A stretch of DNA of 64,000 nt. It comes from Heyndrickxia coagulans 36D1 (GTDB taxonomy: Bacteria > Bacillota > Bacilli > Bacillales > Bacillaceae_C). The translations under genes and the position numbers were made by a program. The number at the start of each line of letters is the position of its first letter. Within the stretch, counting starts at the first letter, position 1. Positions 37,687 to 53,976 of this stretch are shown here, one piece after another. The notes beneath the pieces were generated by a model, which was given only the letters and a program-made list of their open reading frames with translations, had not been told where the DNA came from and searched no databases. The DNA lies in assembly GCF_000169195.2 (NCBI RefSeq), contig NC_016023.1, positions 992,001-1,056,000 on the forward strand, in the 5' to 3' direction.

Positions 37687-39096
37687 TTACGCTGTTTTTT
37701 TCGCTTCTTGTTGCAGCTCACTGTGGCGGATGCTGTATCCGAAGTAGATCACCATGCCGATTGCGAACCAGACAACGAAGCGGATCAGGGTTGCCGGCTG
37801 TAGGCTTGCGATCAATATGCCGCAAGTAATTGCACCGAGAGCCGGTATAACCGGGGCAAGCGGTGTTTTAAACGGACGTTCCAGATCCGGGCGTTTATAG
37901 CGGAGCACAATGACTGCCACGCATACAATCACAAATGCAGCAAGCGTCCCAATATTGGTCATCTCAGCCACAATATTGATCGGGAGGAACCCGGCTGTGA
38001 TCGCGGTGACGATTCCGACCAAAACAGTTGAAGTCGCTGGAGTTTTTCTCTTTTCACTGACTTTTGAAAAAATTTTAGGCAAAAGTCCGTCACGCGACAT
38101 GGCAAACAATACACGCGTCTGCCCGTATGCCATAACAACCAATACGGAAGTAATCCCGCAAATGGCCCCAACGGAAACCAGTGCCGCACCCCAGTGAATG
38201 CCAATTTGCTGCAATGCATACGCAACGGGAGCAGAAGCAGCTTCCGGCCTGCTGAAAATGCTGAATTTGACAACGCCTGTCAAAATGGCGGAAACGATGA
38301 TATACAACACGGTACAAATTAACAAGGAGAACAAAATTCCGCGCGGCACGTCTTTTTGCGGGCGGCGCGTTTCTTCTGCAGCTGTCGATACAGCATCAAA
38401 GCCGATGTAAGCAAAGAAAATAACCGCTGCGCCCGAAAGCACGCCTTTAAATCCGAACGGCATAAACGGATGCCAGTTGACCGGTTTCACATGTGCGACA
38501 GCAAGCACCACAAACAGCAGGACAACGGCTACTTTTATGGCTACGATGATGCCGTTCAGGCGAGATGTCTGCTGGACCCCTGAATACAACAGCCAGGCAA
38601 CTAGAGCGATAATGAGAATGGCCGGCAGGTTGACAATGCCACCGTCCATCGGTGCAAGCGTCAGCGCTTTTGGCAGATGAACTCCGAGATTTCCAAGCAA
38701 GTTCACGGCGTATCCGGACCAGCCGATCGCAACGGTTGAAACAGCCAGGCCGTATTCCAAAATCAAATCCCAGCCGATAATCCATGCCCAAAATTCACCC
38801 AGCGCCGCATACCCGTAAGTATAAGCACTTCCGGCAACCGGCACCATTGATGCAAATTCTGCATAACACAAGGCAGCAAATCCACATGCGAGCCCCGACA
38901 GGATAAAGGAAATAACGAGTGCAGGGCCGGAATAGTTTGCTGCAGCCACACCTGTCAGCACGAATATCCCTGTGCCGATAATGGCGCCGATCCCGAGCAA
39001 AGTGAGATCGAGTGCACCAAGCGCTTTTTTCAGCCCTTGCTTGCCCTGGGTCCCTTCTACAAGGTTTGCGATTGCTTTTGTCTGAAAGATGCTCAT
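37687..39096 (-). CDS. APC-family amino acid permease, YfnA/CAT-like
   Basis: Proton-coupled amino acid importer, 469 residues with about 12 membrane segments. It has the consensus helix-1 break GIGAIIGTGIFVLTGVAAANYSG, GLACGFAALCYAEFASMVPVAGSAYTYGYAALGE, and the CAT-type block FFAYIGFDAVSTAAEETRRPQKDVPRGI. B. subtilis relatives are YfnA and YhdG (branched-chain and other amino acids). GGGGAGG precedes ATG 39096. Monocistronic. Exact substrate not predictable. Confidence 0.87.
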   Translation of the reverse strand: MSIFQTKAIANLVEGTQGKQGLKKALGALDLTLLGIGAIIGTGIFVLTGVAAANYSGPALVISFILSGLACGFAALCYAEFASMVPVAGSAYTYGYAALGEFWAWIIGWDLILEYGLAVSTVAIGWSGYAVNLLGNLGVHLPKALTLAPMDGGIVNLPAILIIALVAWLLYSGVQQTSRLNGIIVAIKVAVVLLFVVLAVAHVKPVNWHPFMPFGFKGVLSGAAVIFFAYIGFDAVSTAAEETRRPQKDVPRGILFSLLICTVLYIIVSAILTGVVKFSIFSRPEAASAPVAYALQQIGIHWGAALVSVGAICGITSVLVVMAYGQTRVLFAMSRDGLLPKIFSKVSEKRKTPATSTVLVGIVTAITAGFLPINIVAEMTNIGTLAAFVIVCVAVIVLRYKRPDLERPFKTPLAPVIPALGAITCGILIASLQPATLIRFVVWFAIGMVIYFGYSIRHSELQQEAKKTA

Positions 39097-39138
39097 TTCT
39101 CATCCTCCCCAAGAATTTTTGGATAATTGCATAATTCT

Positions 39139-39166
39139 ATTATACTTTTCATTGAAAATTTATCAA
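39139..39166 (-). promoter_or_regulatory. Promoter of the YfnA-like permease
   Basis: Minus strand TTGATA (39166-39161), 16 nt, TATAAT (39144-39139), about 43 nt before the start codon. Confidence 0.6.
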
Positions 39167-39333
39167 TATAGAAATATAACAAATTAAGAAAAAATTTGGA
39201 TTGTAAGAAATTGTAACTCTTATCGTTCTTTTCCATCCTTCCCGGATATGCCTGCATCTGCTTGGCGGCTGCAGAAACTGTTTTGTTTGCTTCGTCATGG
39301 AACACGGCAGAGTAAAAATTTGCACATGAAATA

Positions 39334-40160
39334 GGGCTTGCTGAATAAGCAAAACCTACAGAATCGGCAAGGGATGCTGAGGATTTTGTGAAACTTTAAA
39401 TGCAAAATATAGGAAAACTTTGTGATTGAAAGCTGTTTCAATGATTAGAATATGTTAAGATAGACCTTCGTTTTTCCACGCTTCCTTAACTTAGACGTGT
39501 TCTATGTTAAGGAAGACCTCCTTTTTTCCGCGCTTCCTTAACTTAGACGCGTTCTATGTGAAGGAAGACCTCCTTTTTTCTGCGCTTCCTTAACTTAGAC
39601 GCGTTCTATGTGAAGAAAGGCCGTCTTTTTTCCACGCTTCCTTCACTTAGACGGGCTCTACGTTAAGAAAGACCTCCTTTTTTCCTTGCTTCCTTCACTT
39701 AGACGGGCTCTATGTGAAGGAAGACCTCCTTTTTTCCTCGCTTCCTTAACGTAGACGGATTCTATGTTAAGGAAGACCTCCTTTTTTCTGCGCTTCCTTA
39801 ACATAGACGGGCTCTATGTTAAGAAAGACCTCCTTTTTTCCTCGCTTCCTTCACGTAGACGAGCTCTACGTTAAGAAAGACCTCCTTTTTTTCCGCACTT
39901 CCTTAACTTAGACGGGCTCTATGTGAAGGAAGACCTTCTTTTTTCTGCGCTTCCTTAACTTAGACGGGCTCTACGTTAAGGAAGACCTCCTTTTTTCTGC
40001 GCTTCCTTCACGTAGACGGGCTCTATGTGAAGAAAGACCTCCTTTTTTCCGCGCTTCCTTAACGTAGACGCGTTCTATGTGAAGAAAGGCTATATTTGAG
40101 ACAGATCTTGTTGACAAATTGGGTACCAACTCAGAATCGGATTTGTTCAGCAAACACTAA
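39334..40160. mobile_element. Transposase-less element with inverted ends carrying a hairpin array
   Basis: Starts GGGCTTGCTGAATAAGC at 39334 and ends near 40157 with TTGTTCAGCAAACAC, an imperfect inverted copy. The first about 120 bp are homologous, with order kept (GGCAAGG, ATGCTGA, TTTAAATG, GAAAGCTG), to 52368-52500; the last part (TATTTGAGACAGATCTTGTTGAC) resembles 52533-52556. Between these halves sits the 52-bp array. There is no coding capacity. Interpreted as a MITE-like element in which a repeat array has grown or inserted. Confidence 0.5.
39451..40089. repeat. Array A: twelve 52-bp hairpin units
   Basis: Units start at 39481, 39533, 39585, 39637, 39689, 39741, 39793, 39845, 39898, 39950, 40002 and 40054: period 52 bp throughout, with one 53. 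A partial unit occupies 39451-39480. Each unit is an inverted repeat, CTTCCTTMACNTAGA, 5-nt loop, TCTAYGTKAAGRAAG (35 bp), plus a 17-bp spacer ACCTCCTTTTTTCYGCG. Both arms vary between AAC and CAC (or GTT and GTG), but the variants do not pair consistently. No coding frame. Confidence 0.9.
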
Positions 40161-40420
40161 ATAAAAGGACGTACGCGAAGTTTTTTCGTGAAGGTACTGA
40201 AATGCTGACCCGGGGCCGGAACGCATATCACTTCGTTTGGCAATTTAACCCTGTTCATTTAAAAATTGGCATTTCCCCCATGCAGCGGATTTTTTACTTT
40301 GCACAGATGAGAGGCCACGAACCTTTTACTTGTGGTTCAGAGCCAAAACCGGGCCTAAAATCTTTCTTAGAACGGCCCGCGATCCTTCAACATCGTAAAC
40401 CTGTTCCGAAATATCCGATG

Positions 40421-40449
40421 GTCGCAATCCCGCTCTCGTATGGTATAAT
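40421..40449 (+). promoter_or_regulatory. Extended -10 promoter
   Basis: GTCGCA (40421-40426), 17 nt, TATAAT (40444-40449) preceded by TG at the extended -10 position. It lies 24 nt before the start codon of the following gene, with AAGGAGGGG between. Confidence 0.6.
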
Positions 40450-40472
40450 CAAACTATCAAGGAGGGGATTTT

Positions 40473-41864
40473 ATGGCAGCCCAATTGACCATTACAGACC
40501 GCAAACATGTGGTTCACGCGGATATAGAAAGGATGGCCGTTTTTTTGCAGGGCAAATTTGTCGAGGCAACCGGTGATGATGGCCGCCTGTGGTATGTGTT
40601 TTTTTACAAGGACCATTATTTGAACGCGATACCCGCAACCAAAATCAAACGGGGGTCCAAAGTGGCACAGGCTTTCCGTGACTGCATTGTGCTCGAGCCT
40701 CCCCATCCGCTGATTGATTTGCTTTTCCAGCCGGGTTGCTCATTTAAAACCATTCATTTTGCCCAGCTTACTGGCAAAATGGAGAAACTGTTCCCGCCAC
40801 TTGAAGCCGCCTGGATTGCCACGTTTTTCGAATCGTTTGTCCCGAAACGGAAGCTCTTTGAATATATCCAATCCATCTTTTATGAATACCGCCGCAATGG
40901 CCAGCTATTGCAGTGCACGCGCATCCTTCGCATTTTAAAAGACTTTGCGCCGAAGCAAAGCTGGGTCAAGCAAATGTCCCGCGATTTAAATCTGATTAAG
41001 TACGACAAACTCTTTCAATCCTATTCACCCGAACTGATCCGGAAAGACCCCCTTTATGCCGAAAAACTTTTATATGAGAAAATGCCGGATGCCGAAGCTT
41101 TTGCAAAACTTTGCGACCTACTGCGTGCGCAAAACCGGTGGGCGGACGAAATCGCGTTAAGCCTTGAGCAAATGGAATCGTCGCCGACCGATACCGGCTA
41201 CAAAGCGCTCCTTGAACGGCTGGACGCGCATTTCGAAGAGGCGGAAAAAATGGCCATTTTGGAAAATCTCTATGCCCGCATCCGGCAGTTTGAACCGCTG
41301 CAGCAAGATTTACTAAAGTTTTATATTGAGACAAAACAACTGGAAAAAATGATCCCGATGATGCTTGAGGAACAGATTCAGTTGAGTGCGAAACAGGCAG
41401 AAAAAGTGGAAAAGATGCTTGAATCATGGAGCCCGGATGATGGTGAAACAGATGTAGAAGCACTGAACCGGCTTGCCCCGCTCTTTTCCGGGCATCCGGC
41501 ACAGGCAGAGAAATTCGTGGTAAAATGCACTTCCTATTTGTTACAGCACCGGGACACTTCCTATATACTGGAATGGCTGCTTCCGTTCAAGAAAGCAGCC
41601 GGGCATTTGCCGGCCATCCGCAAAGTGGAGCAAATGCACCAAATGGCGGACGATCCCGACAAGCAATCCCTGCTCGGGGAATTGTATTTTGAATTTGGGC
41701 AGTACGACAGAGCGCTTGACTGTTTCAGCTGGGAAATGGAGTTGCGGGAAAACGACCCCGCCCCGGTCAAATGGTTGTCAAAAATTTATCACGAACTCGG
41801 CATGCAAGCGGAATCGAACGCATACCGAAATTTGTATATTGATATGGAAAAGCGAAGAGCGTAA
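40473..41864 (+). CDS. Helical-repeat (TPR-like) cytoplasmic protein of unknown function
   Basis: 463 residues, no signal peptide or membrane segment. An N-terminal beta-rich part (about 1-75, MAAQLTITDRKHVVHADIERM) precedes helical hairpins, the last of which resemble TPRs (LGELYFEFGQYDRALDCFSWEMELRENDPAPVKWLSKIYHELGM region, about 400-455). The KRKLFEYIQSIFYEYRRNGQLLQCTRIL part is strongly basic. AAGGAGGGG precedes ATG 40473. It stands alone between repeat arrays A and B. Probably a protein-interaction scaffold; nothing specific can be claimed. Confidence 0.75.
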   Translation: MAAQLTITDRKHVVHADIERMAVFLQGKFVEATGDDGRLWYVFFYKDHYLNAIPATKIKRGSKVAQAFRDCIVLEPPHPLIDLLFQPGCSFKTIHFAQLTGKMEKLFPPLEAAWIATFFESFVPKRKLFEYIQSIFYEYRRNGQLLQCTRILRILKDFAPKQSWVKQMSRDLNLIKYDKLFQSYSPELIRKDPLYAEKLLYEKMPDAEAFAKLCDLLRAQNRWADEIALSLEQMESSPTDTGYKALLERLDAHFEEAEKMAILENLYARIRQFEPLQQDLLKFYIETKQLEKMIPMMLEEQIQLSAKQAEKVEKMLESWSPDDGETDVEALNRLAPLFSGHPAQAEKFVVKCTSYLLQHRDTSYILEWLLPFKKAAGHLPAIRKVEQMHQMADDPDKQSLLGELYFEFGQYDRALDCFSWEMELRENDPAPVKWLSKIYHELGMQAESNAYRNLYIDMEKRRA

Positions 41865-41928
41865 GGCGAAAGTGGGGCCAGACCCTGCTTTTTTTATGGC
41901 CGAGTACGCAGGTCGCCCAAATGGCTGC

Positions 41929-42740
41929 GATGAAGGACATTTCTGCGGGCGGACGGATCCCCTTTTGTCTTTCATGCCTGTGATGAAGGACATTTCTGGG
42001 GGCGGGCGGGGTCCCTTTTGTCTTTCATGCCCGCGATCAAGGACATTTCCGAGGGCGGGCGGATCCCCTTTTGTCCTTCATGCGCGGGATGAAGGACATT
42101 TCCGAGGGCTGCCGTCTCTCTTTTGTCTTTCATAATCTCGATGAAGGATTTCTATTGGTGGGCGGGTCCCTTTTGTCCTTTTGAACTCTCCAAAAAGACA
42201 TTTCGAACACTACCCAAGCCGCTTTTGGCCTTTTGAAACCTCCAAAAAGACATTTTGAACACCAACCAGGCCACTTTTGTCTTTTTGAAACCTCCAAAAG
42301 GACATTTCGATCGCTACCCGGGGTCCTTTTGTCTTTTTGAAGCCTCCAAAAGGACATTCCGAACACCAACCAGGCCACTTTTGTCCTTTTCAAACCTCCA
42401 AAAAGACATTTCGAACACTACCCAAGCCACTTTTGGCCTTTTGAACCCTCCAAAAGGACATTTCGATCGCTACCCGGATTCCTTTTGTCCTTTTGAGCCC
42501 TCCAAAAGGACATTTCGATCACTGCCCGGGTTCCTTTTGTCTTTTTGAGCTCTCCAAAAAGGCATTTCGAACACTACCCAAGCCACTTTTGGCCTTTTGT
42601 AACCTCCAAAAAGACATTTCGAACACCAACCAAGCCGCTTTTGGCCTTTTCAAACCCCCAAAAGGACATTTCGAACACCAACCAAGCCGCTTTTGGCCTT
42701 TTCAAACCTCCAAAAAATATTTCAATCGCCACCCGAGTGA
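41929..42740. repeat. Array B: about sixteen 52-bp hairpin units of two stem types
   Basis: Unit anchors recur every 52 bp (42249, 42301, 42353, 42405, 42457, 42509, 42561, 42613, 42665), while the first four intervals are 52-53 bp and one at the type switch is about 50. Units 1-4 form TGTCYTTCAT, 7-nt loop, ATGAAGGACA; from about 42140 the arms become TGTCCTTTTG and CAAAAGGACA, again with a 7-nt loop. Hairpin 27 bp plus spacer 25 bp. Several units are exact (for example 42086 and 42486 regions), others have wobble or mismatched pairs. The last unit decays at 42717. Confidence 0.88.
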
Positions 42741-42796
42741 TGTCCGTTCCCGCTTCAAAAGACATTCCGCCGGTTATTTTCGCCCGTGATCAACTT

Positions 42797-42828
42797 GAAA
42801 GCCGCCCCGCGCATCCGGGACGGCTTTC
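42797..42828 (-). terminator. potABCD terminator
   Basis: GAAAGCCGTCCCG/CGGGGCGGCTTTC (minus strand) with a 6-nt loop, immediately after the potD stop; one mismatch in 13 bp. Confidence 0.7.
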
Positions 42829-42829
42829 G

Positions 42830-43903
42830 TTATTTGGTATGCATTTTAAATTCCAAAAATAGCTCATTATAGCGGGCGAGTTTTTTCTTGCCAAGGTTTT
42901 TATATACTTCCAGTTTCTTTGTGAGTGCAGCATCCGGATAAAAACGGCGGTCGCCGGAAATCGATTTTGGCAAAATCTTCAGAGCCGCTTTGTTCGGCGT
43001 TGAATAACCGACATACTCGGCGTTTTGCGCGGCGTTTTTCGGATCGAGCATAAAATTGATAAACTTCAGGGCGCCATCCACGTTTTTCGCTGTTTTCGGG
43101 ATGACCATGTTGTCGAACCAGAGATTGGAGCCTTCGCTCGGCACAACATAGTTCAGCTTTTTATTCTCTGACATGATCTCAGCCGCATCCCCCGACCAGA
43201 CAACCCCGAGCGAAGCTTCTTCATTGGCCAGCAGCATCTTGATTTCATCGCCGACGATCGCTTTCACATTCGGCATCAGCCGATCAAGTTTTGCTTTTGC
43301 CTGCTGCAAATGTTTTTCATTCGTATCATTCAGCGAGTAATGCAGGCTGTTGAGCCCCATCCCCATCACTTCGCGGGCGCCGTCCACAAGCAGAATCTGA
43401 TTTTTCAAATCGGGATCCCACAGGTCGTCCCAGCTTGTAATTTTTTTGCCGCCAAGCATGCTTGAATTATACACAATCCCAACCGTCCCCCAGAAATAAG
43501 GCACCGAATATCGGTTTTTCGGATCAAACGGCAAATCCATAAAGCGCGAATCGATATATTTCAAGTTCGGCAGCTTCGAATGATCAAGCGGAATCAGCAA
43601 GTTCTCCTTTTTCATCTTTTCGATCATATACTCGGATGGAACCGCAACATCAAACGTTGTACCGCCCTGGGAGATTTTTGTCATCATGGCTTCGTTCGAA
43701 TCGAAAGTTTGATAAATGACTTTGATGCCGGTCTGCTTTTCAAATTTCTTAATCAAGGCGGGATCGATATAATCCCCCCAGTTGTAAATCGTGAGCGTAT
43801 TCCCGCCTGCATAGCCTTCCGTTTGGTTCATGCGTCCAGCGAGAAATTGCAGGGCAAGGGCGACAACGATTATCGCAATAAAAACACGCAGCAGCTGTTT
43901 CAT
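42830..43903 (-). CDS. potD: Spermidine/putrescine-binding protein PotD, lipobox cysteine replaced
   Basis: Extracellular polyamine-binding component of PotABCD, 357 residues. TLTIYNWGDYIDPALIKKFEKQTGIKV is the PotD N-terminal block, and WGTVGIVYNSS, LGVVWSGDAAEIM and LWFDNMVIPKTAKN line the ligand site. The N-terminal hydrophobic segment (about 4-21) ends FLAG-R where Gram-positive relatives have a LAGC lipobox: the codon is CGC, one base from TGC. It may therefore be anchored by its uncleaved segment or released rather than lipid-modified. Overlaps potC by 4 nt. Confidence 0.93.
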   Translation of the reverse strand: MKQLLRVFIAIIVVALALQFLAGRMNQTEGYAGGNTLTIYNWGDYIDPALIKKFEKQTGIKVIYQTFDSNEAMMTKISQGGTTFDVAVPSEYMIEKMKKENLLIPLDHSKLPNLKYIDSRFMDLPFDPKNRYSVPYFWGTVGIVYNSSMLGGKKITSWDDLWDPDLKNQILLVDGAREVMGMGLNSLHYSLNDTNEKHLQQAKAKLDRLMPNVKAIVGDEIKMLLANEEASLGVVWSGDAAEIMSENKKLNYVVPSEGSNLWFDNMVIPKTAKNVDGALKFINFMLDPKNAAQNAEYVGYSTPNKAALKILPKSISGDRRFYPDAALTKKLEVYKNLGKKKLARYNELFLEFKMHTK

Positions 43904-44709
43904 CTTTTAACCCCCATTCCGTTCGTGCGGGCCTGGCGCTGGTTCACGAGGTAGTATCCGATCACAAGGATAATAGAGAAGAAGAAGAGCAGCGTTGACA
44001 GCGCGTTAATCGTGAGCGAGATCCCTTGGCGCGCACGCGAATAAATTTCAACGGAAAGCGTCGAATAGCCGTTCCCGGTGACAAAAAAGGTGACGGCAAA
44101 ATCATCGAGCGAATACGTGAGCGCCATGAAAAAACCGGCAAAAATACCGGGCGTAATGTACGGGAGAATCACCTTCGACAACACATCCCACTGGCTTGCC
44201 CCAAGGTCGCGCGCCGCATCAATCAAAGTTGGGCTCATTTCCTGCAGTTTCGGCAGCACCATCAGCACAACAATCGGAATGCAAAAAGCGATGTGCGAAA
44301 CGAGAACGGATGTAAACCCGAGCTTGATCCCTGCAATCGTAAATAAAATCAGGAACGATGCACCGATAATGACGTCAGGGCTTACGATCAGCACATTATT
44401 GAGCGAAAGCAGCGCATTTTTCGTTCTTCTTCTTTTCACAAACCGGATCGCGAGCGCCCCCATCACACCGATCACCGTTGAAATCGCGGATGCGAGTAGC
44501 GCAATCACAAGCGTATTGATGACAATGATCATAAGGCGCGTGTCCTGGAACACTTCCTTGTACCATTCCCATGTAAAACCGCTAAATTCATGCATGTTCC
44601 CTGCTTTGTTGAACGAATAATACATTAAATAAAAGATCGGTGCGTAAAGGACGATAAACACAAATATCAGATATAAGTTTGACCATTTCCATCTTTTTTT
44701 CAACTTCAT
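43900..44709 (-). CDS. potC: Spermidine/putrescine ABC transporter permease PotC
   Basis: Inner-membrane permease, 269 residues and six membrane segments. The EAA loop that contacts PotA is present: [20 protein letters not shown]. The N-terminus WSNLYLIFVFIVLYAPIFYLMYYSFN is characteristic of PotC. It starts 3 nt after potB ends and overlaps potD. Confidence 0.94.
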   Translation of the reverse strand: MKLKKRWKWSNLYLIFVFIVLYAPIFYLMYYSFNKAGNMHEFSGFTWEWYKEVFQDTRLMIIVINTLVIALLASAISTVIGVMGALAIRFVKRRRTKNALLSLNNVLIVSPDVIIGASFLILFTIAGIKLGFTSVLVSHIAFCIPIVVLMVLPKLQEMSPTLIDAARDLGASQWDVLSKVILPYITPGIFAGFFMALTYSLDDFAVTFFVTGNGYSTLSVEIYSRARQGISLTINALSTLLFFFSIILVIGYYLVNQRQARTNGMGVKR

Positions 44710-44712
44710 CCC

Positions 44713-45504
44713 TCACTTCCGGTTGCCGGTCACAATCATAATGACGACCATGGCAATGATCAAAAAGACGGCGATCGTAGACCCCATGCCCCAATCCTGT
44801 GTGACAAGGAAATGCTCCTCAATTGCCGTACCGAGCGTAATGACACGGTTTCCCGCAATCAGGCGCGTAATCATAAAGAGTGACAGAGACGGAATAAAGA
44901 CAGCCTGACACCCTGATTTGACACCGTCCAGCGTGAGCGGAAACACAACGCAGCGGAACGTGGCCCATTTCGAGGCGCCAAGATCGCGCGCCGCATCCAT
45001 AAAGACCGGGTTTAGTTCTTCAAGCGCGTTATAAATCGGCAAAATCATAAATGGGATAAAAATATAAGTAGACACAAACAAAAAGCTGAAGTCTGTAAAT
45101 AAAATCTGCTTTTGCCCGATGCCCATCCATTCAAGAAACGAGTTGGCCGGGCCGAATGTGCCGAAAATCCCGAGAAACGCATACGCTTTTAACAACAAAT
45201 TGATCCATGTCGGCAAAATGATTAATAAGAGCCAGAGCTGCTTATGCCGCGATTTTGTCAAAAGATAAGCAGTCGGATACGAAATCAAAAGTGTAAACGC
45301 CGTAATCAAAAACGCATACCAAAAAGAGCTCAGCGTCATTTTCAAATAAACGGGCGTAAAAAATTTTTCATAGTTGACAAGCGACAAATGCCCTTCAATA
45401 TCAAAAAAAGAATAATAGAGAATGAGCAAAATCGGCGCGATTACAAAAAGAAGGATCCACAGCAAATACGGAACGAGATAAAAAGTGCGTGCATTTACTT
45501 TCAT
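44713..45504 (-). CDS. potB: Spermidine/putrescine ABC transporter permease PotB
   Basis: Inner-membrane permease, 263 residues and six membrane segments, with EAA loop [23 protein letters not shown] 45504 overlaps the potA stop (45501) by 4 nt. Partner of PotC in the transport channel. Confidence 0.94.
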
Positions 45505-46601
45505 GGCCGGACCTCATCGTACGCTTCCAGGCGCCGGTCGAATTCCTCTTCTGTTTCGCCGAATCTCATCACGTGGATCGCTTCCGGTTCAAAATAAAGG
45601 CCGATCGTATCCCCGACTTTTGCTTTTTTTGTCGAGTGGACAAGCCATTCATTTCCCTCTTCATCGTAGCAACAAATTTCATAATGGACGCCGCGGAACA
45701 GCTGCGTATCCACCCGCACTTTCAAGTTCCCTTTTTCCGGTGTCGTGATTTCTAAATCTTCCGGGCGGATGACAATTTCAACCGGCTCGTTCGGATGAAA
45801 GCCGCGGTCAACGCATTCGAACGCATGGCCGTTAAATTCCACAACAAAATCCTTGATCATTTTTCCCGGAAGGATATTGGACTCGCCGATAAAGTCCGCG
45901 ACAAAGCGGTTGATCGGTTCATCGTAAATATCGGTCGGCGTGCCGCTCTGCTGGATTTTCCCGTTATTGATGACAAAAATTTCATCGCTCATCGCAAGCG
46001 CTTCTTCCTGGTCGTGCGTGACAAAAATAAACGTAATGCCAAGGCGGCGCTGCAGTTCACGCAGTTCATACTGCATCTCTGTCCTTAGCTTCAAATCCAG
46101 CGCGGAAAGCGGTTCGTCCAGCAAAATCACTTCCGGTTCATTGACAATCGCGCGCGCAATCGCGACACGCTGCCGCTGCCCGCCTGACATTTCGCTGATT
46201 TCCCGGTTTTCATAGCCTTCCAGATTCACAAACTTCAAGGCTTCTTTTACTTTTTGTTCAATCACAGCTGCCTTCATTTTTTTAATGCGCAGCCCAAATG
46301 CGACGTTTTCATACACATTTAAATGAGGAAATAGCGCATAATCCTGGAAAACGGTATTGACCTGGCGCCGGTTGGCTGGCACGTCATTCACGATTTTTCC
46401 ATTGATGTAAATATTTCCTTTTGTCGGCGCAATAAATCCCGCAATCAGGCGCAAAATCGTTGTTTTTCCGCAACCCGACGGTCCGAGCAGAGTGTAAAAT
46501 TTTCCGCGTTCTATTTCAAAACTGACGTCATCCAAAATAGCAGGATCATCGTCGTATTGTTTTGTGACATGTTCAAAACGAATGATGATATCGCTGTTCA
46601 T
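45501..46601 (-). CDS. potA: Spermidine/putrescine ABC transporter ATP-binding protein PotA
   Basis: ATPase of the polyamine importer, 366 residues: Walker [11 protein letters not shown]-loop [20 protein letters not shown], signature [16 protein letters not shown], Walker [14 protein letters not shown] and the His switch [14 protein letters not shown], then a C-terminal TOBE domain (about 280-350). Lies 26 nt after potR and couples to potB. Confidence 0.95.
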
Positions 46602-46627
46602 TGCTGTCCTCCTCTTCTATGTTCAGC

Positions 46628-47170
46628 TTACAGATACGATTCCGTAGCAACGAGTACAAGCCTGGACCGGCCTTCCGCGTCATTCAGGATCTGATGCTCA
46701 TCGGATGCATGATAATAAATGGCTTCTCCGGCTTTTGCACGGTACAGGCGTTTGCCAAGCCGCACCGCAATCCGGCCTTCCAGTACATAGGCAAAGGTTT
46801 CCGATAAAGAAGGTTCAAACGTTTTAAACTCCCCTTTTTCCTCAAGCGTAAGCAGGATCGGTTCCATTTCCTTTTCATTCGATTCCGGGACGAGCCACTG
46901 GATTTTATAACCGCGCTCTTCATCGAGATAATCGGTCTGGTCTTCTTCCCCGTATACGACTTTTTGTTCACGCTCTTCTTCGTCAAAAAATTCTTTCGGC
47001 GTGCAGCCGAGCACTTCCAATATATTAAAAAACGTGTCAATCGAAGGGGAGCTTAAATCCCGCTCAAGCTGGGAAATATAGCCTTTGCTTAAGTCCGTGC
47101 GCTCTCCAAGTTCCTCTTGGGTGAGTCCTTTTTTTAACCTTAAGTTTTTAATTTTTTTCCCGATCTTCAT
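46628..47170 (-). CDS. XRE-cupin regulator of the pot operon
   Basis: 180 residues: an N-terminal XRE helix-turn-helix (TQEELGERTDLSKGYISQLE, about 15-35) and a C-terminal cupin domain (about 110-178, with YVLEGRIAVRLGKRLYRAKAGEAIYY). The architecture is that of PuuR-type polyamine-responsive repressors. As first gene of potR-potABCD it probably represses the operon when polyamines are plentiful. ATG 47170 is preferred (GGAAGG 7 nt upstream); the ATG at 47173 is also in frame. Confidence 0.87.
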   Translation of the reverse strand: MKIGKKIKNLRLKKGLTQEELGERTDLSKGYISQLERDLSSPSIDTFFNILEVLGCTPKEFFDEEEREQKVVYGEEDQTDYLDEERGYKIQWLVPESNEKEMEPILLTLEEKGEFKTFEPSLSETFAYVLEGRIAVRLGKRLYRAKAGEAIYYHASDEHQILNDAEGRSRLVLVATESYL

Positions 47171-47232
47171 CATAAAACCTTCCATTTTGTTTAGCATTTG
47201 TAAACTCAAAGGCAAGGAAGTTTTGTTTTGTT

Positions 47233-47285
47233 AAACTTTAAGTTTACTTTCATATGTATTATACAAAAAAGCAGGCAGATGTAAA
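47233..47285 (-). promoter_or_regulatory. pot operon promoter with palindromic operator
   Basis: Minus strand TTTACA (47285-47280), 16 nt, TATAAT (47263-47258). A 13-bp palindrome AAACTT-T-AAGTTT (47233-47245) lies 13-25 nt past the -10, and a second GTTTA...TAAAC pair follows at about 47195-47213. Candidate sites for the XRE-cupin repressor. Confidence 0.55.
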
Positions 47286-47440
47286 GGTTTTTTTGAAAAA
47301 AACACGCATCACGGTCGTCCCCCTGCTGTCTCGGCTCCCCTCCTTTCCAGCCGGTTTATGAAAACGAACAATCCCACTCGGGCGTTTTCTTACAGAGAGG
47401 CAGATGTTTGTAAAAATAAGCCCGCATATAAAATATGGCC

Positions 47441-47522
47441 GCGCTGTTGCCTGCTGCAAAAAGTCAATCATGCAAACTGGCGCCGGGCTTGACGTAAAAA
47501 CTGAAATCCATTTTATATAACA
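47441..47522 (+). repeat. Dispersed intergenic repeat, copy 3
   Basis: Begins GCGCTGTTGCCTGCTGCAAA after ATAAAATATGGCC and ends with CCATTTTATATAAC. It shares this 5' flank (ATAAAATAT-GC-GC) with copy 4. It lies between the divergent pot and lysP promoters. Confidence 0.7.
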
Positions 47523-47557
47523 CCTATTTTTGCCACCCCGTTCTGCTGCCTTTTCTA

Positions 47558-47586
47558 TTGATTTTCCCTAAAAACATAACTATAAT
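47558..47586 (+). promoter_or_regulatory. lysP promoter
   Basis: TTGATT (47558-47563), 17 nt, TATAAT (47581-47586). The lysine riboswitch begins about 35 nt downstream of the expected start point. Confidence 0.65.
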
Positions 47587-47627
47587 TATATGTAAATCAA
47601 ATTGAATAAAAAAATCCTCATCAAATC

Positions 47628-47833
47628 CGGTGAGGTAGAGGTCGCAGCTTTTATGAGTAAATCGGACGAGACACGGGTAAAGTTTAAGACTCCGGTTGAA
47701 AGGAAAAGCTGCCGAAATGTGGTGCCGGATCCCGCGGTGCCATGTTGGGGCTGTTTCCGAACAGGAACAGAACTGTCACATATGCGATTCCCCCTCGCAT
47801 ATGTGTTGAGCTATCTTCGGAAGGTTGATGGAG
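47628..47833 (+). ncRNA. Lysine riboswitch (L-box)
   Basis: Contains the hallmark conserved words of the lysine aptamer in order: AGGTAGAGGTCGCAGC at 47634, a GAGTAA shortly after, then AAAGGAAAAGCTGCCGAA (47699-47716) whose AGCTGC pairs with GCAGCT of the first block, and a long hairpin CACATATGCGA/TCGCATATGTG (about 47777-47803). It binds lysine and, when bound, favours the terminator that follows, shutting off the downstream lysine permease. Confidence 0.9.
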
Positions 47834-47845
47834 GGTATACGCTTT

Positions 47846-47880
47846 GATGCCGCGTCTCCACGACTGCGGCATTTTTGTTT
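47846..47880 (+). terminator. Riboswitch-controlled terminator
   Basis: GATGCCGC/GCGGCAT stem followed by TTTTTGTTT, between the aptamer and the lysP ribosome site: the expression platform of the lysine riboswitch. Confidence 0.8.
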
Positions 47881-47920
47881 ATTCCCTGCTCCTTCCTATA
47901 TAAAAAGGAGTGTATCAAGG

Positions 47921-49411
47921 ATGGATGACTTCTATCATGGGCAAAGCACTACAGCTGGAGCGGTTCCCGTTACGAAAAAGGGTGAAGTGACAAAACTAAA
48001 GCGAAAATTAAAATCCCGCCACCTGACCATGATTTCCCTCGGCGGATCAATCGGAACCGGGCTTTTTCTGGCAAGCGGCGGGGCAATCCACAGCGCGGGG
48101 CCGGGCGGGGCGCTTCTCGCTTATGCATTAATTGGCGTCATGGTGTACTTTTTAATGACAAGTCTTGCGGAAATGGCCGCCTACATGCCGGTTGCAGGCA
48201 CCTTCAGCACGTACGCGACGAAATTTGTTGACCCGGCACTTGGATTTGCGCTTGGCTGGAACTATTGGTATAACTGGGCGATCACGATTGCGGCCGAATT
48301 ATCGGCAGCAACCATTATCATGAAATTCTGGTTCCCGCATACGCCTTCGATCGTGTGGAGTGCGGCCTGCCTTCTCATCATGTTCTTATTAAATTATTTA
48401 TCTGTAAAAGGGTTCGGGGAAGCAGAATACTGGTTTGCAATCATAAAAGTCGTGACCGTCATTGCCTTTATCATTGTCGGCGCACTGATGATTTTCGGGA
48501 TTATGGGTGGAAAAGCAATCGGCTTCCATAACCTTACGATTGCAGACGGCCCGGTCCACGGCGGATTCCTGGCCGTACTCGGGATTTTTATGGCAGCCGG
48601 GTTTTCGTTCCAGGGAACAGAACTGCTCGGGGTTGCGGCCGGTGAAAGTGAAGATCCGGAAAAAACCATTCCGCATGCTGTGAAATCTGTTTTTTGGAGA
48701 ATTTTGCTTTTCTATATTCTGGCGATTTTTGTCATCGGCCTGCTGATTCCGTTCACGGATTCGAGACTAACCGCCGACGACATTACGATGAGCCCGTTCA
48801 CAATTGTATTTCAGCGTGCCGGCATTGCCTTTGCTGCTTCTGTCATGAATGCGATTATTTTAACGGCTGTTCTTTCTGCCGGCAACTCGGGTATGTACGC
48901 GTCAACGCGAATGCTCTGGGAACTGGCGCGTGACGGCAAAGCGCCGAAATTCCTCGGAAAACTGAATAAACGCGGGGTACCGGTGAATGCACTGATTGTC
49001 ACTTCGCTTGTTGGAACGGTGGCTTTCCTTGCATCTTTCTTCGGTGACGGGGCAGTGTACAACTGGCTCCTGAACGCATCCGGCTTATCCGGCTTTATCG
49101 CCTGGCTCGGGATTGCCATCAGCCATTACCGGTTCCGCCGTGCATATGTGGCGCAAGGAAAAGCGTTGAGCGACCTGCCTTACCGTTCGAGATGGTTCCC
49201 ATTCGGACCGCTATTTGCGTTTGCCGTTTGTACGGTCGTCATTCTCGGGCAAAACTACCAGGCATTTCTGGGAGACCATATTAAGTGGGAAAGCGTGTTT
49301 GTCTCGTATATCGGCCTGCCCATCTTTATTGCCGTATGGCTCATTTATAAATTTGTGAAAAAGACAAAAGTCGTTTCTTTACAGGAATGCGATTTTAACC
49401 GAGAATCCTAA
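47921..49411 (+). CDS. lysP: Lysine-specific permease
   Basis: APC-family amino acid importer, 496 residues with 12 membrane segments. SLGGSIGTGLFLASGGAIHSAGPGGALLAY is the helix-1 substrate site of the AAT group, and FQGTELLGVAAGESEDPEKTIP and NSGMYASTRMLWELARDGKAPKF are conserved motifs. ATG 47921 follows AAGGAG; the frame is open further upstream but that overlaps the riboswitch terminator. Lysine specificity is supported by the riboswitch in its leader as well as by LysP similarity. Confidence 0.92.
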   Translation: MDDFYHGQSTTAGAVPVTKKGEVTKLKRKLKSRHLTMISLGGSIGTGLFLASGGAIHSAGPGGALLAYALIGVMVYFLMTSLAEMAAYMPVAGTFSTYATKFVDPALGFALGWNYWYNWAITIAAELSAATIIMKFWFPHTPSIVWSAACLLIMFLLNYLSVKGFGEAEYWFAIIKVVTVIAFIIVGALMIFGIMGGKAIGFHNLTIADGPVHGGFLAVLGIFMAAGFSFQGTELLGVAAGESEDPEKTIPHAVKSVFWRILLFYILAIFVIGLLIPFTDSRLTADDITMSPFTIVFQRAGIAFAASVMNAIILTAVLSAGNSGMYASTRMLWELARDGKAPKFLGKLNKRGVPVNALIVTSLVGTVAFLASFFGDGAVYNWLLNASGLSGFIAWLGIAISHYRFRRAYVAQGKALSDLPYRSRWFPFGPLFAFAVCTVVILGQNYQAFLGDHIKWESVFVSYIGLPIFIAVWLIYKFVKKTKVVSLQECDFNRES

Positions 49412-49414
49412 CGG

Positions 49415-49446
49415 AAAAACCTGCGGTGGCTGCCGCAGGTTTTTTC
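49415..49446 (+). terminator. lysP terminator
   Basis: AACCTGCGG/CCGCAGGTT stem with a 6-nt loop and TTTTTT run, 4 nt after the stop codon. Confidence 0.85.
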
Positions 49447-49506
49447 CTTTCATCAGAAACTTACTTTTAACATAAATTATATGAAATTTACCTTTATTTT
49501 AATTTA

Positions 49507-49520
49507 TGAAAACGTTTCCT
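49507..49520 (+). promoter_or_regulatory. cre-like site upstream of the peptide transporter
   Basis: TGAAAACGTTTCCT matches 12 of 14 positions of the CcpA consensus and lies 240 nt before the dtpT-like gene. The rest of 49447-49759 is AT-rich with no other clear element. Confidence 0.4.
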
Positions 49521-49759
49521 TTATCTAGGAAAAAATTCATTTTAAATATTTTCCTAGCTCAGAATCCTTTATTTCATGCGGGTTCCAGCCTTTTTTAACA
49601 ATGGCGCACACAAATTTGCCAAAAAATTAATCTTTATTTTTTTCTCATTTTACGTTAATATTTTATCTATCGCATTCATTCCCCGAAAAAACCAGCACTT
49701 ATTTTTCAGTTAATTTCACAAATTATGCCAATATGTGATTTTTACAAGGAGGCAATGGC

Positions 49760-51253
49760 ATGTCAACAATCGACAAGAAAAAAGTTCTGGCAACTGTTCC
49801 ACAGACCGGATTTTTTGGTCATCCAAAAGGGTTGTCGACTTTATTTTTCCTAGAGTTTTGGGAGAGATTCTCTTACTACGGGATGAAAGGGATTCTGATT
49901 TACTACATGTATGACCGCCTGTCAAACGGCGGGTTGGGATTGGACCCGACAACAGCCGCATCGATTGCTTCGATTTACGGCGCGCTTGTTTATATGTCGG
50001 GGATTATCGGCGGCTGGATTTCAGACCGTCTGCTCGGTTCCGCCAAAACCGTTTTTTACGGCGGAGTGCTGATTATGCTCGGGCATATTGCGTTGTCCTT
50101 TCCGGGAGGGTTCCCGGCGCTGATCGTTTCCATGGTGCTGATTGTGCTTGGGACAGGCTTGTTAAAACCAAATGCCGCTTCAACCGTCGGGGAATTGTAT
50201 GATGAAAAAGACTTGCGGCGCGATTCCGGTTTCAGCATTTACTACATGGCGGTTAACCTCGGGGCCTTCATTGCGCCACTCATTGTCGGAACAATCGGTC
50301 AGGGGTACAATTACCATCTCGGCTTCAGTATTGCAGCGATCGGAATGTTTTTCGGTTTGATCGCATTCACCATGTCCAGGAAGAAAAATCTTGGGCTTGC
50401 CGGCTCTGTTGTGCACAACCCGTTGAAGCCGGAAGAAAGAAGATCGACTTTCACCAAAATCGGCGTAGGAGCTGTCGTCCTGATTATTTTGCTGGCGATT
50501 ACCATTCCGACACGGATTTTAAATCTGAACAGCTTTATTACCATCGTCAGCATTTTAGGATTTTTGATTCCTGCCTGGTACTTCTTTATGATGTACTTTA
50601 GCAAAAAAACATCGAAAGACGAACGCTCACGCATTTTGGCTTATATTCCTTTATTTATTGCTTCCATCGTCTTCTGGGCGATTGAAGAACAAGGCGCGAG
50701 TTTGCTCGCCGTCTATGCGGACAAGCGGACACAGCTGAATTTTGCCGGCATTCATATTTTACCGTCCTGGTTTCAGACATTGAATCCGCTGTTTATCGTC
50801 GTCTTTGCGCCGGTTTTGGCTTCGCTTTGGGTGAAGCTGGGAGACAGGCAGCCGTCTACACCGGTTAAATTTTCGTTTGGGCTTATCCTTGCTGGTTTGT
50901 CCTATATGGTCATGGTGGCCCCGGCTTACTTTAACGGCTCTTCGTCGCTCGTGAGCCCGCTCTGGCTTGTATTGAGCTACTTCCTTGTCGTGATCGGGGA
51001 ACTTTGCTTGTCACCGGTTGGTTTGAGTGTATCGACAAAGCTGGCGCCAGCCGCATTCTCGGCGCAAATGCTCAGCCTCTGGAACTTGTCTGATGCTGCG
51101 GCCCAAACGTTGAACGCCCAGCTTGTCAAACTGTACAGCGCCAACCATGAAGTGATCTACTTCGGCGGCGTCGGCCTTGTTTCGGTCATTTTGGGCATAT
51201 TCCTGCTCCTCTACGCACCGGTTATCAAACGGCTGATGAGAGGGATAAAATAA
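49760..51253 (+). CDS. dtpT: Di-/tripeptide transporter, POT family (DtpT-like)
   Basis: Proton-coupled oligopeptide importer, 497 residues and about 14 membrane segments. The POT signature EFWERFSYYGMKGIL (proton-coupling ExxERF) is at residues 33-47, with KPNAASTVGELY and FSIYYMAVNLGAFIAPLI being the second PTR2 signature and SPVGLSVSTKLAP near the C-terminus. ATG 49760 follows AAGGAGG by 7 nt. Single-gene unit with terminator. Confidence 0.93.
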   Translation: MSTIDKKKVLATVPQTGFFGHPKGLSTLFFLEFWERFSYYGMKGILIYYMYDRLSNGGLGLDPTTAASIASIYGALVYMSGIIGGWISDRLLGSAKTVFYGGVLIMLGHIALSFPGGFPALIVSMVLIVLGTGLLKPNAASTVGELYDEKDLRRDSGFSIYYMAVNLGAFIAPLIVGTIGQGYNYHLGFSIAAIGMFFGLIAFTMSRKKNLGLAGSVVHNPLKPEERRSTFTKIGVGAVVLIILLAITIPTRILNLNSFITIVSILGFLIPAWYFFMMYFSKKTSKDERSRILAYIPLFIASIVFWAIEEQGASLLAVYADKRTQLNFAGIHILPSWFQTLNPLFIVVFAPVLASLWVKLGDRQPSTPVKFSFGLILAGLSYMVMVAPAYFNGSSSLVSPLWLVLSYFLVVIGELCLSPVGLSVSTKLAPAAFSAQMLSLWNLSDAAAQTLNAQLVKLYSANHEVIYFGGVGLVSVILGIFLLLYAPVIKRLMRGIK

Positions 51254-51270
51254 TAGATGAAGTGATGAAA

Positions 51271-51298
51271 AACCGGGGCATTGGTCCCCGGTTTTTTT
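51271..51298 (+). terminator. dtpT terminator
   Basis: AACCGGGG/CCCCGGTT with a 7-nt loop and a T run. Confidence 0.85.
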
Positions 51299-51341
51299 AA
51301 TGGATTTGCTGGTATGTGCCGTGTAACAATTGGAGTGGATG

Positions 51342-51776
51342 CTAATCGATTGGGGTAAGCTTAACCGTTGCTTCTGTCTGGACGGTGTAGCCGTCATACA
51401 CCATAAACGTATAGGAAGCTTCGCCATTTACGCCAAGAATCGTATTCACATCTGGTACACCTTCTCCGTCAAAAGTGACGAAGTTCGATCCTTCACCAAC
51501 CGGCGTGGCTTTATACCTTCCTTCCGGGATGTCTTTGCCAACTTCATATCTGCCGGCTGCCAACGTCTTTGGTGCACTTTTCGCTTTCTGCACCTGTCCT
51601 GTCAATGAAGCAAGGTCCTTTTTCTTGGCATCCACTTTGCTTTGAGTGGATTTTAATTCTGATTTTGCATTTTTCAAGTCAGCTTGTGCAACATCGACCT
51701 GTTTGTTCAAAGTATCGAGTTGCGTTTTAAGATCATCTTGCTGGGATACAAGTTCCTCGGCTGCATCATAGTCATC
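51342..51776 (-). pseudogene. 5'-truncated coiled-coil surface protein gene
   Basis: About 144 C-terminal residues: a heptad-rich coiled coil (DLKTQLDTLNKQVDV to SLTGQVQKAKSA) and then a beta domain beginning AAGRYEVGKDIPEGRYKATP and ending VKLTPID, a module common at the end of Firmicute cell-surface lipoproteins. Reading upstream, the frame runs straight into repeat array C at 51776 and meets a stop there. Signal peptide and start are gone and were not found beyond the array. The 11-aa-offset ATG at 51710 lacks a ribosome site, so the remnant is probably not expressed. Confidence 0.65.
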
Positions 51777-52367
51777 TTCCCTTAACGTAGATGGGCCCTA
51801 TGTAAAGAAAAGCCTTCATTTTTGCACGCTTTCTTAACATAAACGCCCTCTAGGTTAAGGAAGAGCCTCGTTTTTTCACGCTTCCTTAACCTAGGCGCGC
51901 TCTAGGTTAAGGAAGGCCTTCGTTTTTCCGCGCTTCCTTAACGTAGACGCCCTCTAGGTTAAGGAAGAGCCTCGTTTTTGCTTGCTTCCTTAACCTAGGC
52001 GGGCTCTAGGTTAAGAAAGGCCTTCGTTTTTCTGCTCTTCCTTATCCTTAACGTAGACGCCCTCTAGGTGAAGGAAAAGCCTCGTTTTTTCGTGCTTCCT
52101 TAACGTAGACGCCCTCTAGGTTAAGGAAAAGCCTCGTTTTTTCACGCTTCCTTAACGTAGACGCCCTCTAGGTTAAGGAAGAGCCTCGTTTTTTCACGCT
52201 TCCTTAACGTAGACGCCCTCTAGGTTAAGGAAGAGCCTCGTTTTTTCACGCTTCCTTAACGTAGACGCCCTCTAGGTTAAGGAAGAGCCTCGTTTTTTCA
52301 CGCTTCCTTAACGTAGACGCCCTCTATGTAAAGAAAGGCCTTCATTTTTCCACGACTCCTTAACGTA
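51776..52367. repeat. Array C: eleven to twelve 52-bp hairpin units
   Basis: Units start at about 51776, 51829, 51881, 51933, 51985, 52037, 52095, 52147, 52199, 52251 and 52303, with a truncated one at 52355; the interval is 52 bp except where unit 6 carries a short duplication. Same stem family as array A, CTTCCTTAACGTAGA/TCTAGGTTAAGGAAG, but with a different spacer (AGCCTCGTTTTTTCACG). Units 7-11 are almost identical, pointing to recent expansion; outer units are diverged. Confidence 0.9.
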
Positions 52368-52556
52368 GGGCTTGCTGAACACGCAAAATTCCTAGATTTG
52401 GCAAGGATGCTGACAGTTTTGGCAAAAATTTAAATGGTTTTTTTAGAAAGTCCAGAGAAAAGCTTGCACTTGAAAGCTGATTCAAGGTATAGAGAAGACA
52501 AAATCGTATTTTCAAAGATGAAGTCTTTTATATTTTAAGACACAGGTTGTTGACCC
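52368..52556. mobile_element. Second copy of the GGGCTTGCTGAA element
   Basis: Starts GGGCTTGCTGAACACGC inside the last truncated unit of array C. It is alignable to 39334-39455 and, at its far end (TATTTTAAGACACAGGTTGTTGAC), to 40091-40114. Here the two halves are contiguous, without an array between. No matching right inverted end was found. Confidence 0.5.
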
Positions 52557-52568
52557 TATATAAAAGAG

Positions 52569-52608
52569 AAAAACCCGTTTGGAAATCCTCTTTCCAAACG
52601 GGTTTTTG
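52569..52608 (-). terminator. Terminator of the CycA-like permease gene
   Basis: AAAAACCCGTTTGGAAA/TTTCCAAACGGGTTTTT, perfect 17-bp stem with a 5-nt loop, at the stop codon. Confidence 0.85.
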
Positions 52609-53976
52609 TTAAATGCTTTTCTTCTTTCGTGTCAGGCCGTAAGCGATGACAAGCAGGATGAACCATACCGGTGTCACAAATAAGGCAACACGCGTATCTT
52701 TTGCTATCCCCAGAACCACGAGGACAAAAACAAAGAACAAGAGTACAATCCAGTTGATGACCGGGGCAAACGGCAATTTAAAAGAGATTTTGGCCGCTTC
52801 TTCCGGCATATTTTTCCGGAAACGCAAGTGGGCAACCATAATGACGCCCCACACCCAGACAAAACAGATGGATGAAATGCTTGTGACAAGCGTAAAGACT
52901 TGCGTGCTCTTCATAAAATAATTCAGCATAACGCCGATTAACAGCATGATCGTTGAACCAAGCAAAGCAGGTGCCGGGACATTCCGCTTGTTTAACTTTT
53001 TAAATATTTTCGGTGCTTTTCCATCTTCTGCAAGAGAATACAGCATACGGCTTGTACTGAAAATGCCGCTGTTGCACGAGGAAGCCGCCGAAGTGAGCAC
53101 CACAAAATTGATGATACCTGCTGCAGCCGGCAGACCGATATCAGCAAATACCCGGACAAACGGGCTCGCATCCGGATTCAGCCGGTTCCAAGGATAAATC
53201 GACATGATGACAAACAAAGCGCCGACATAAAACAGTAAAATCCGCAGCGGAATCTGGTTGATCGCTTTTGGCAGCGTCTTTGATGGATCCTCTGCTTCCC
53301 CGGCTGTTACGCCGACCAGTTCAATCCCGACAAATGAAAAGACGGCCATTTCAAACGCTAGCAAAAACCCTTTTGAGCCATTCGGGAAAAAGCCGCCGTG
53401 CTGCCACAGGTTTGTAAAAGAGGCGTGCCCCCCATTGCTTTGAAAACCAGCGAACACGAGGAGAATGCCGATAACAATCAGGGCAATAATGGTGACAACT
53501 TTAATAATAGCAAACCAAAATTCCATTTCCCCGAATGCTTTGACTGTCGCAATATTGATGAGAAACAAAACAGCGACGCAAATCAAAGCAGGAATCCACT
53601 GTGGCAGATCGGGTACCCAAAATTGAACATACATACCGACTGCGGTAATTTCGGCAATACCGGTTACAATCCAGCAAAACCAATAGGTCCAGCCGGTAAT
53701 AAAGCCTGCCCACGGTCCGATAAATGTTTCAGCAAAATGGGTAAACGATCCGGTAATCGGCTTGTACATCAGCAGTTCGCCGAGTGCCCGCATCATAAAG
53801 AAAAGGGCTAAGCCGATTACGAAGTATACGAGCATAATAGACGGGCCGGCAAAGTGAATCGATTTGCCGGAACCAAGGAAAAGCCCCGTTCCAATTGCGC
53901 CCCCGATCGCAATCAATTGAATATGGCGGTTTTTCAGCCCGCGACTCAGCTCTTGTCCATTCGGGCTTTGATCCAT
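52609..53976 (-). CDS. Amino acid permease, CycA/AapA type
   Basis: AAT-group APC transporter, 455 residues with 12 membrane segments. RGLKNRHIQLIAIGGAIGTG and LFLGSGKSIHFAGPS at the N-terminus, FSFVGIELVGVTAGEAEDPSKTLPKAINQIPLRIL and NSGIFSTSRMLYSLAEDGKAPK fit D-serine/D-alanine/glycine permeases (CycA; B. subtilis AapA/YtnA). ATG 53976 has AAGGAG 9 nt upstream; a TTG at 53985 is less likely. Monocistronic. Confidence 0.87.
   Translation of the reverse strand: MDQSPNGQELSRGLKNRHIQLIAIGGAIGTGLFLGSGKSIHFAGPSIMLVYFVIGLALFFMMRALGELLMYKPITGSFTHFAETFIGPWAGFITGWTYWFCWIVTGIAEITAVGMYVQFWVPDLPQWIPALICVAVLFLINIATVKAFGEMEFWFAIIKVVTIIALIVIGILLVFAGFQSNGGHASFTNLWQHGGFFPNGSKGFLLAFEMAVFSFVGIELVGVTAGEAEDPSKTLPKAINQIPLRILLFYVGALFVIMSIYPWNRLNPDASPFVRVFADIGLPAAAGIINFVVLTSAASSCNSGIFSTSRMLYSLAEDGKAPKIFKKLNKRNVPAPALLGSTIMLLIGVMLNYFMKSTQVFTLVTSISSICFVWVWGVIMVAHLRFRKNMPEEAAKISFKLPFAPVINWIVLLFFVFVLVVLGIAKDTRVALFVTPVWFILLVIAYGLTRKKKSI

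Follow-up and report, generated by a model that had tools for sequence, protein, structure and literature searches.

The 52-bp period of the hairpin-bearing tandem arrays described here appears to be under constraint, and this conclusion is well supported. Three such arrays, A, B and C, lie between genes in a 64,000-nucleotide window (bases 992001 to 1056000) of the single-contig genome of Heyndrickxia coagulans 36D1 (G000; 3,552,226 bp). A first-pass annotation of this window, made from the sequence alone, had noted their common period and suggested that the period itself is constrained. Our analysis strongly supports this proposal, the period being unchanged over many arrays with nearly unrelated spacers. 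The three arrays of the window proved to be a small sample: dozens of intergenic gaps of the same genome and many related genera hold such arrays. As to what the arrays are, we regard it as quite possible, if not yet probable, that they form fixed-pitch rows of DNA dyads facing the same way, with a pitch selected at the DNA level; that they act at gene ends is less certain.

Tandem Repeats Finder (TRF), with which tandem arrays in the window were called, confirmed A, B and C as genuine tandem arrays (Table 1) and placed array C at 51780-52368 with 11.2 copies. Their unit make-up was as first described, that is, 35 bp of inverted repeat plus 17 bp of spacer in A and C, whereas B has a 27-bp inverted repeat and a 25-bp spacer; CCTT/AAGG occurs in the stems of both. 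When the units were aligned, A and C appeared as one hairpin family (mean column identity of 88% over 18 units), and the B family comprised two stem types (13 units aligned). The uniform 52-bp period that had been claimed holds for most intervals, but there is one 53-bp interval in A and one of 58 bp, with a 6-bp insertion, in C. Similarly, a single 52-bp period applies only to the second block of array B. This array runs from a 53-bp block through two intervals of 51 bp into the 52-bp block, and has intervals of 51 and 45 bp at its degenerate right end. The contrast between 35 + 17 and 27 + 25, which had been taken to suggest constraint, is weaker evidence than it seems, because substitution alone can shift the edge of an inverted repeat.

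Much more weight is carried by the rest of the genome. Searching it with models of the A-type unit (R1) and the B-type unit (R2), at E values up to 1, gave at least 209 and at least 178 matches, respectively (150 candidates scored for each model). The stretches taken around the matches listed amount to 865,519 bp (857,017 bp non-redundant), about one-quarter of the chromosome; as they were chosen by R1 and R2, array families unlike A and B are visible only if they lie nearby. These stretches hold 731 inverted repeats. Adjacent centers were 52 bp apart 180 times, 51 bp apart four times and 53 bp apart three times, and no distance between 20 and 100 bp other than 52 occurred more than four times. 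A finer pass covered 52 tandem-array loci (32,351 bp) and counted hairpin-center intervals of 40 to 66 bp. Exactly 52 bp was found in 406 of the 445 intervals, and four-unit spans measured exactly 208 bp in 207 of 263 cases. All stem types behaved alike (209/222 for A-A, 82/86 for B1-B1 and 104/115 for B2-B2 intervals at exactly 52 bp), while inverted-repeat lengths clustered at 35 or 33 bp in A and at 27 or 29 bp in B. Freely varying periods within the same stem families were not seen, since 52 bp was the modal period in each of the 42 arrays for which four or more intervals had been measured.

Several apparent departures from this picture, or additions to it, did not hold up. Outlier intervals of 41-42 and 62-64 bp, considered as 52 bp plus or minus one helical turn, were mostly hairpins shifted within normal units. 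Where A and B arrays adjoin (genome positions 485757, 1299526, 1300141, 2467302 and 2594859), the distances of 73, 95, 189, 241 and 95 bp correspond to 6.95, 9.05, 18.0, 22.95 and 9.05 turns of 10.5 bp; as proof of helical phase, these five junctions, two of them possibly homologous, are suggestive only. A second set of loci contained no further A/B junction, and the breaks between B arrays were mixed (75 bp twice, 148, 178, 193 and 366 bp). TRF often favored 156 bp, but a three-unit super-repeat was dismissed as a coding signal, the best lag being one unit in 20 of 30 arrays. Figures obtained for arrays at 98% identity came from overlapping segments and were left unused.

The sequence of the units turns over while their length stays. 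Between arrays, spacer middles were 31.6% identical, compared to 27.1% for shuffled letters, and only 33 of 741 spacer pairs were at least 70% alike, six loci counted twice being among them; inside one array, spacers recur. The stems also differ: CTTCAT/ATGAAG, CTTTTG/CAAAAG and AATTAG types are found in the genome itself, GCGTTCAT/ATGAACGC in G002, and CCAATAG/CTATTGG beside CCTTCAT in one G148 array, and in G195 GTCC is replaced by GATC on both sides of the stem. Pairing was nevertheless kept. With units chosen by the outer four bases only, on average 5.08 of the inner six stem bases paired with their own partner, compared to 3.67 with arms from other arrays (53 arrays), and the highest of 2,000 shuffled trials reached 4.25. 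What is conserved is the hairpin base, TGTC/GACA. In a 400-kb sample of four relatives, drawn at round coordinates, two 52-bp arrays were found, one of the B type and the other, in G027, made of 17.7 copies of an unrelated unit. The arrays are thus not simple copies of one 52-bp unit, spacers being nearly random between arrays and an unrelated unit having the same period.

The scan of other genomes likewise showed 52 bp to be dominant. With G000 included, R2 matched in four of the five genomes of the genus (one of them marginally, E = 0.0099), in 6 of 34 genomes of the family and, with strict filters, in 18 of 397 genomes and 14 of 135 genera of the order. "Order" here is the grouping of the genome search; the NCBI order for the species is Caryophanales, long named Bacillales. 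In the R2 loci examined, those of H. coagulans DSM 1 included, hairpin intervals were 52 bp in 143 of 181 cases, 51 bp in 21 and 53 bp in 9. A strict motif (TGTC-N19-GACA, duplicate loci removed) gave exactly 52 bp in 189/199 intervals in the genome under study, in 76/79 in DSM 1 and in 70/90 elsewhere, where 15 more were at 51 bp and 5 at 53 bp. Around the matches listed for G148 (18 stretches), 72 of 73 intervals were exactly 52 bp. The bias of a 52-position model was avoided by searching for the exact B hairpin alone, blind to the spacer. This hairpin occurred in 47 of the 397 genomes and 27 of the 135 genera of the order, and the reversed control pattern in a single genome; in a class-wide draw, 2 of the 360 genomes from outside the order contained the hairpin. 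Among the neighboring hairpins listed for genomes other than G000 and G003 (taken to be DSM 1), gaps below 420 bp were exact multiples of 52 bp in 34 of 40 cases (0.8 expected) and within 1 bp of one in 38.

Constraint of this kind need not reflect a function. B arrays could be neutral minisatellites that derive from one 52-bp unit and are homogenized by unequal crossing-over and gene conversion, with misaligning length variants being lost. This would account for a hairpin consensus common to several genera, for unit numbers that change at orthologous sites between strains, for the related spacers in some arrays of the genome (the 33 pairs mentioned above) and for the 51- and 53-bp periods of other species. 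We take this explanation seriously but find it unlikely: spacers that are near random between arrays have kept their length, two stem families with unlike inverted-repeat lengths have one period in one genome, and the unrelated unit of G027 repeats at 52 bp too. Moreover, solo transposons that have diverged to a similar degree show no such fixed length: among 16 full solo copies of the miniature transposon of this genome, which are about 85% alike and served for comparison, lengths ranged from 201 to 285 bp, and 7 of 120 pairs were of equal length. Gap opens per mismatch in pairwise alignments, compensating gaps included, gave a modest contrast (0.12 to 0.14 in arrays, 0.20 in transposons), and the length argument rests on net lengths rather than on these counts.

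The first-pass annotation did not mention that the family of A and C is associated with a transposon. An IS5-type miniature transposon carries A-family arrays, or did so in the past, because the site of array A is empty in DSM 1, the array flanks correspond to a repeated element, and this element has a full-length relative of the IS5 family. In DSM 1, window positions 39333 and 40159 are joined (L045 9731-9735 matches both edges), and the target duplication lies within AAATA, present at both insertion edges, although its length, 2 to 5 bp, is ambiguous. The repeated element to which the array flanks correspond has 53 distinct matches in the genome stretches examined. The solo form of the element measures roughly 245 bp and has inverted ends TAGGGCTTGCTGAA, and several A-family arrays lie inside such an element or between two direct copies. 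The full-length relative (L185 534-2177, genome about 1980033-1981676) has a left end of the miniature type, followed by a gene for a 513-amino-acid IS5-family transposase. A stretch of 1.3 kb (window 51274-52566) that comprises array C, a truncated miniature element and a small lipoprotein-like open reading frame (ORF; 51342-51710), whose frame continues toward the array with no clear start of its own, is missing from DSM 1.

B arrays have a different fate. Both flanks were present in the DSM 1 stretches for 6 of the 52 array loci. A B array was kept at all four B sites, with unit counts by the strict motif of 10 and 5, 11 and 19, 8 and 19, and 3 and 3 in 36D1 and DSM 1, respectively, whereas the two A sites had no array in DSM 1, and at one of these the array was replaced by 144 bp of different sequence. 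As array B of the window is kept at its DSM 1 site, that strain offers no empty site for comparison. No carrier transposon was identified for array B, its ends not having been searched systematically.

These observations bear on the idea of a mobile hairpin with a built-in ruler, in which some enzyme, perhaps one like a transposase, adds each copied unit at a constant offset and the pitch reflects the copying machine and not the use of the array. The patchy distribution of the exact hairpin, its conserved TGTC/GACA base and the location of A arrays, which lie in IS5-type miniature transposons or next to them and for which DSM 1 has an empty site, would fit. We consider it improbable, however, since spacers recur inside an array, indicating that whole units are copied, since B arrays are retained at all comparable orthologous sites, and since no candidate enzyme was found. 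Of REP-type (Y1) transposases, the genome has a single truncated fragment (PF01797; 51 amino acids open, with one stop) and no intact copy.

We also considered that the arrays are transcribed and that their hairpins work at the RNA level, for instance by sponging or by stabilizing a 3' end. Units fold well as RNA (z of -3.2 to -4.8 for A and C and of -2.3 for one B1 unit), and the arrays are intergenic and often 3' of genes. In one relative (G206, L122 about 1400-1560), the last hairpin of a short array abuts a ribosome-binding-site-like sequence and a start codon, and this array may lie in a 5' leader. A structured RNA is quite improbable all the same, as flexible linkers would make an exact pitch needless. 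In addition, mismatches that would read as G-U on one RNA strand were about as frequent as those that would do so on the opposite strand (B, 114 and 84; A, 142 and 183; G148, 6 and 10), and no array matched Rfam 15 at the gathering score over window positions 39000-53000, where only a lysine riboswitch passed. Terminator-like sites between gene end and array were found in 36 of 55 cases, compared to 63 of 136 other convergent ends, a weak contrast given 40 of 104 on the wrong strand; the false-positive rate of the finder is high, and a terminator function of the arrays gained no support. The GACCTCC motif in the spacer of array A, which resembles the 3' end of 16S rRNA, was set aside as a signal, as it is absent from the spacer of array C.

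A role at the DNA level, which the first-pass annotation had named beside a structured transcript, is favored only indirectly, by the lack of strand preference among G-U type mismatches and by the lack of coding capacity: of 35 arrays that measure 400 bp or more, a single one (that at 960954) is open in some frame over its full length. Constraint on the pitch also points to double-stranded DNA, because RNA hairpins on flexible linkers need no exact pitch. Helical phasing, the other part of that suggestion, is compatible with the data (5 x 10.4 bp) but insufficient alone: modal periods of 42 or 62 bp were not seen in any array, and therefore a fixed distance, beyond a fixed face, is needed. As for location, 21 of the 50 arrays flanked by ORFs on both sides lie between convergent genes; of 274 other gaps measuring 150 bp or more, 57 do so (p = 0.002).

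We thus tentatively favor rows of equally spaced dyads. Each unit is an inverted repeat that can fold into a hairpin, and dyad centers lie 52 bp, or about five helical turns, apart, which would place all dyads on the same face of the helix. Selection at the DNA level may keep this pitch if a dyad-recognizing factor must meet neighboring units in equal geometry; candidates would be an oligomerizing dimer or a hairpin- or cruciform-binding protein. Alternatively, the pitch may reflect cruciforms that are obliged to extrude on one side. Least certain is the purpose: the lattice could be a spacer, topological or insulating, at the ends of genes and frequently where two genes converge. The A family, besides, has been moved within its own genome by the IS5-type miniature transposons.

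A number of observations weigh against the dyad rows. No binding protein was found, none having been sought by experiment. In the A/C units of the window the stem is mostly invariant, and covariation did not exceed that of shuffles. For one B2 unit, the hairpin predicted at the DNA level is weak (z of -0.9 and -0.6). The common B hairpin consensus makes a single 52-bp ancestor possible, and some arrays of other species run at 51 or 53 bp. The unrelated 52-bp units of G027 and of G001, the latter beside a B-type array, form dyads that do not surpass those of shuffled units; a less perfect dyad may suffice, or these two are a separate phenomenon. In G148, the excess of convergent pairs was not significant (6/18 arrays and 5/37 gaps, p = 0.15), and arrays there show a strong bias of orientation relative to replication, whereas in 36D1 the orientations, as read by eye, show no clear bias.

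More broadly, and with greater doubt, Bacillus-related bacteria may carry an element class defined by pitch and not by sequence, a five-turn lattice of dyads on one face, grown from diverse seed sequences. One factor common to all, able to bind hairpins or to extrude them, would hold the lattice at 52 bp and organize the DNA at gene ends. Palindromic repeats between genes abound, and for most of them an explanation is lacking. In the present case a physical quantity that can be measured, the 52-bp pitch, is kept through sequence turnover in one genome and in the 27 hairpin-carrying genera. A function in DNA geometry can be tested directly by insertions of half or whole helical turns, for which hundreds of natural units, a transposon-carried family that is present or absent in close strains and a cultivable probiotic host provide handles. 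Were the arrays neutral, they would reveal an unusual mode of turnover, one in which the length of the unit is preserved to the single base pair.

The arrays were compared with known systems. They resemble repetitive extragenic palindromic (REP) sequences and bacterial interspersed mosaic elements (BIMEs) (PMC3733652), as well as REP doublets forming hairpins (REPINs; PMC3116915), in being short intergenic palindromes in many copies, often clustered near gene ends. REP/BIME palindromes have a GTAG or CGTC tag at their base (PMC3733652). In contrast, the arrays always run head to tail at a fixed 52-bp pitch with a sequence free to change, and the bases of the units shown, inspected by eye, are TGTC/GACA or CTTCC/GGAAG, with no GTAG or CGTC. 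By the features examined, they are not REP/BIME. The carrier of array A, with terminal inverted repeats, a target duplication, an empty site and a full-length relative with transposase, is a miniature inverted-repeat transposable element (MITE); the array itself is not, being cargo or an internal expansion of its carrier. Palindromic repeats at regular spacing recall clustered regularly interspaced short palindromic repeats (CRISPR), but CRISPR repeats are near-identical and their spacers unique, while here repeats vary; the arrays are not CRISPR, because their spacers repeat. Minisatellites (variable-number tandem repeats) also consist of tandem units whose number varies between strains; unlike in these, the period is common to unrelated units in one genome and across many genera. 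A literature search, with passages of PMC3733652, PMC2267715 and PMC11575207 included and most subscription papers outside its reach, showed no description of such arrays among the papers listed.

Table 1. Arrays and associated elements in the window (window coordinates)
Feature	Position	Strand	Description
Array A	39451..40088	+	52-bp units, 12.2 copies; 35-bp inverted repeat CTTCCTTAAC..GTTAAGGAAG and 17-bp spacer; matched by R1
Inserted element carrying array A	39332..40159	+	Ends TAGGGCTTGCTGAA and TTCAGCAAACACTA; site unoccupied in DSM 1; related ends also at other genome positions
Array B, whole	41921-42723	+	Two blocks
Array B, first block	41921..42148	+	Four 53-bp units; ATGAAG-type stem GTCCTTCAT/ATGAAGGAC
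Array B, second block	42164..42723	+	52-bp units; CAAAAG-type stem GTCCTTTTG/CAAAAGGAC; 27-bp inverted repeat and 25-bp spacer; matched by R2
Array C	51776..52368	+	A family; 52-bp units, one 58-bp interval
IS5-type miniature element copy, right end lost	52366..52560	+	Directly after array C; nhmmer match 1044366-1044436; right boundary by eye

ORFs around the arrays were called by length only. Five proteins neighboring the arrays were compared with Pfam and comprised two permeases, one solute-binding protein and two without a match; a protein encoded in the interval from array A to array B shares 94% identity with one of DSM 1. The lysine riboswitch (window 47628-47821, 121.8 bits) lies just 5' of a permease-like ORF (47825-49411). 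Further tandem repeats of the window, at 3414-3631, 21149-21607 and 56487-56942, have periods of 68, 162 and 195 bp and, as far as examined, are not hairpin arrays of this kind. In G148, 16 of 17 arrays at 0.2-2.2 Mb point one way, an array at 3.83 Mb points the opposite way, and all 11 arrays between co-directional genes are antisense to those genes. Finally, G001 (L104-L108) and G027 (L165 17308-17743) contain tandem repeats of a further class, in which units like AAATCAGCGGAAA recur roughly every 21 bp, or two helical turns, in many short arrays.

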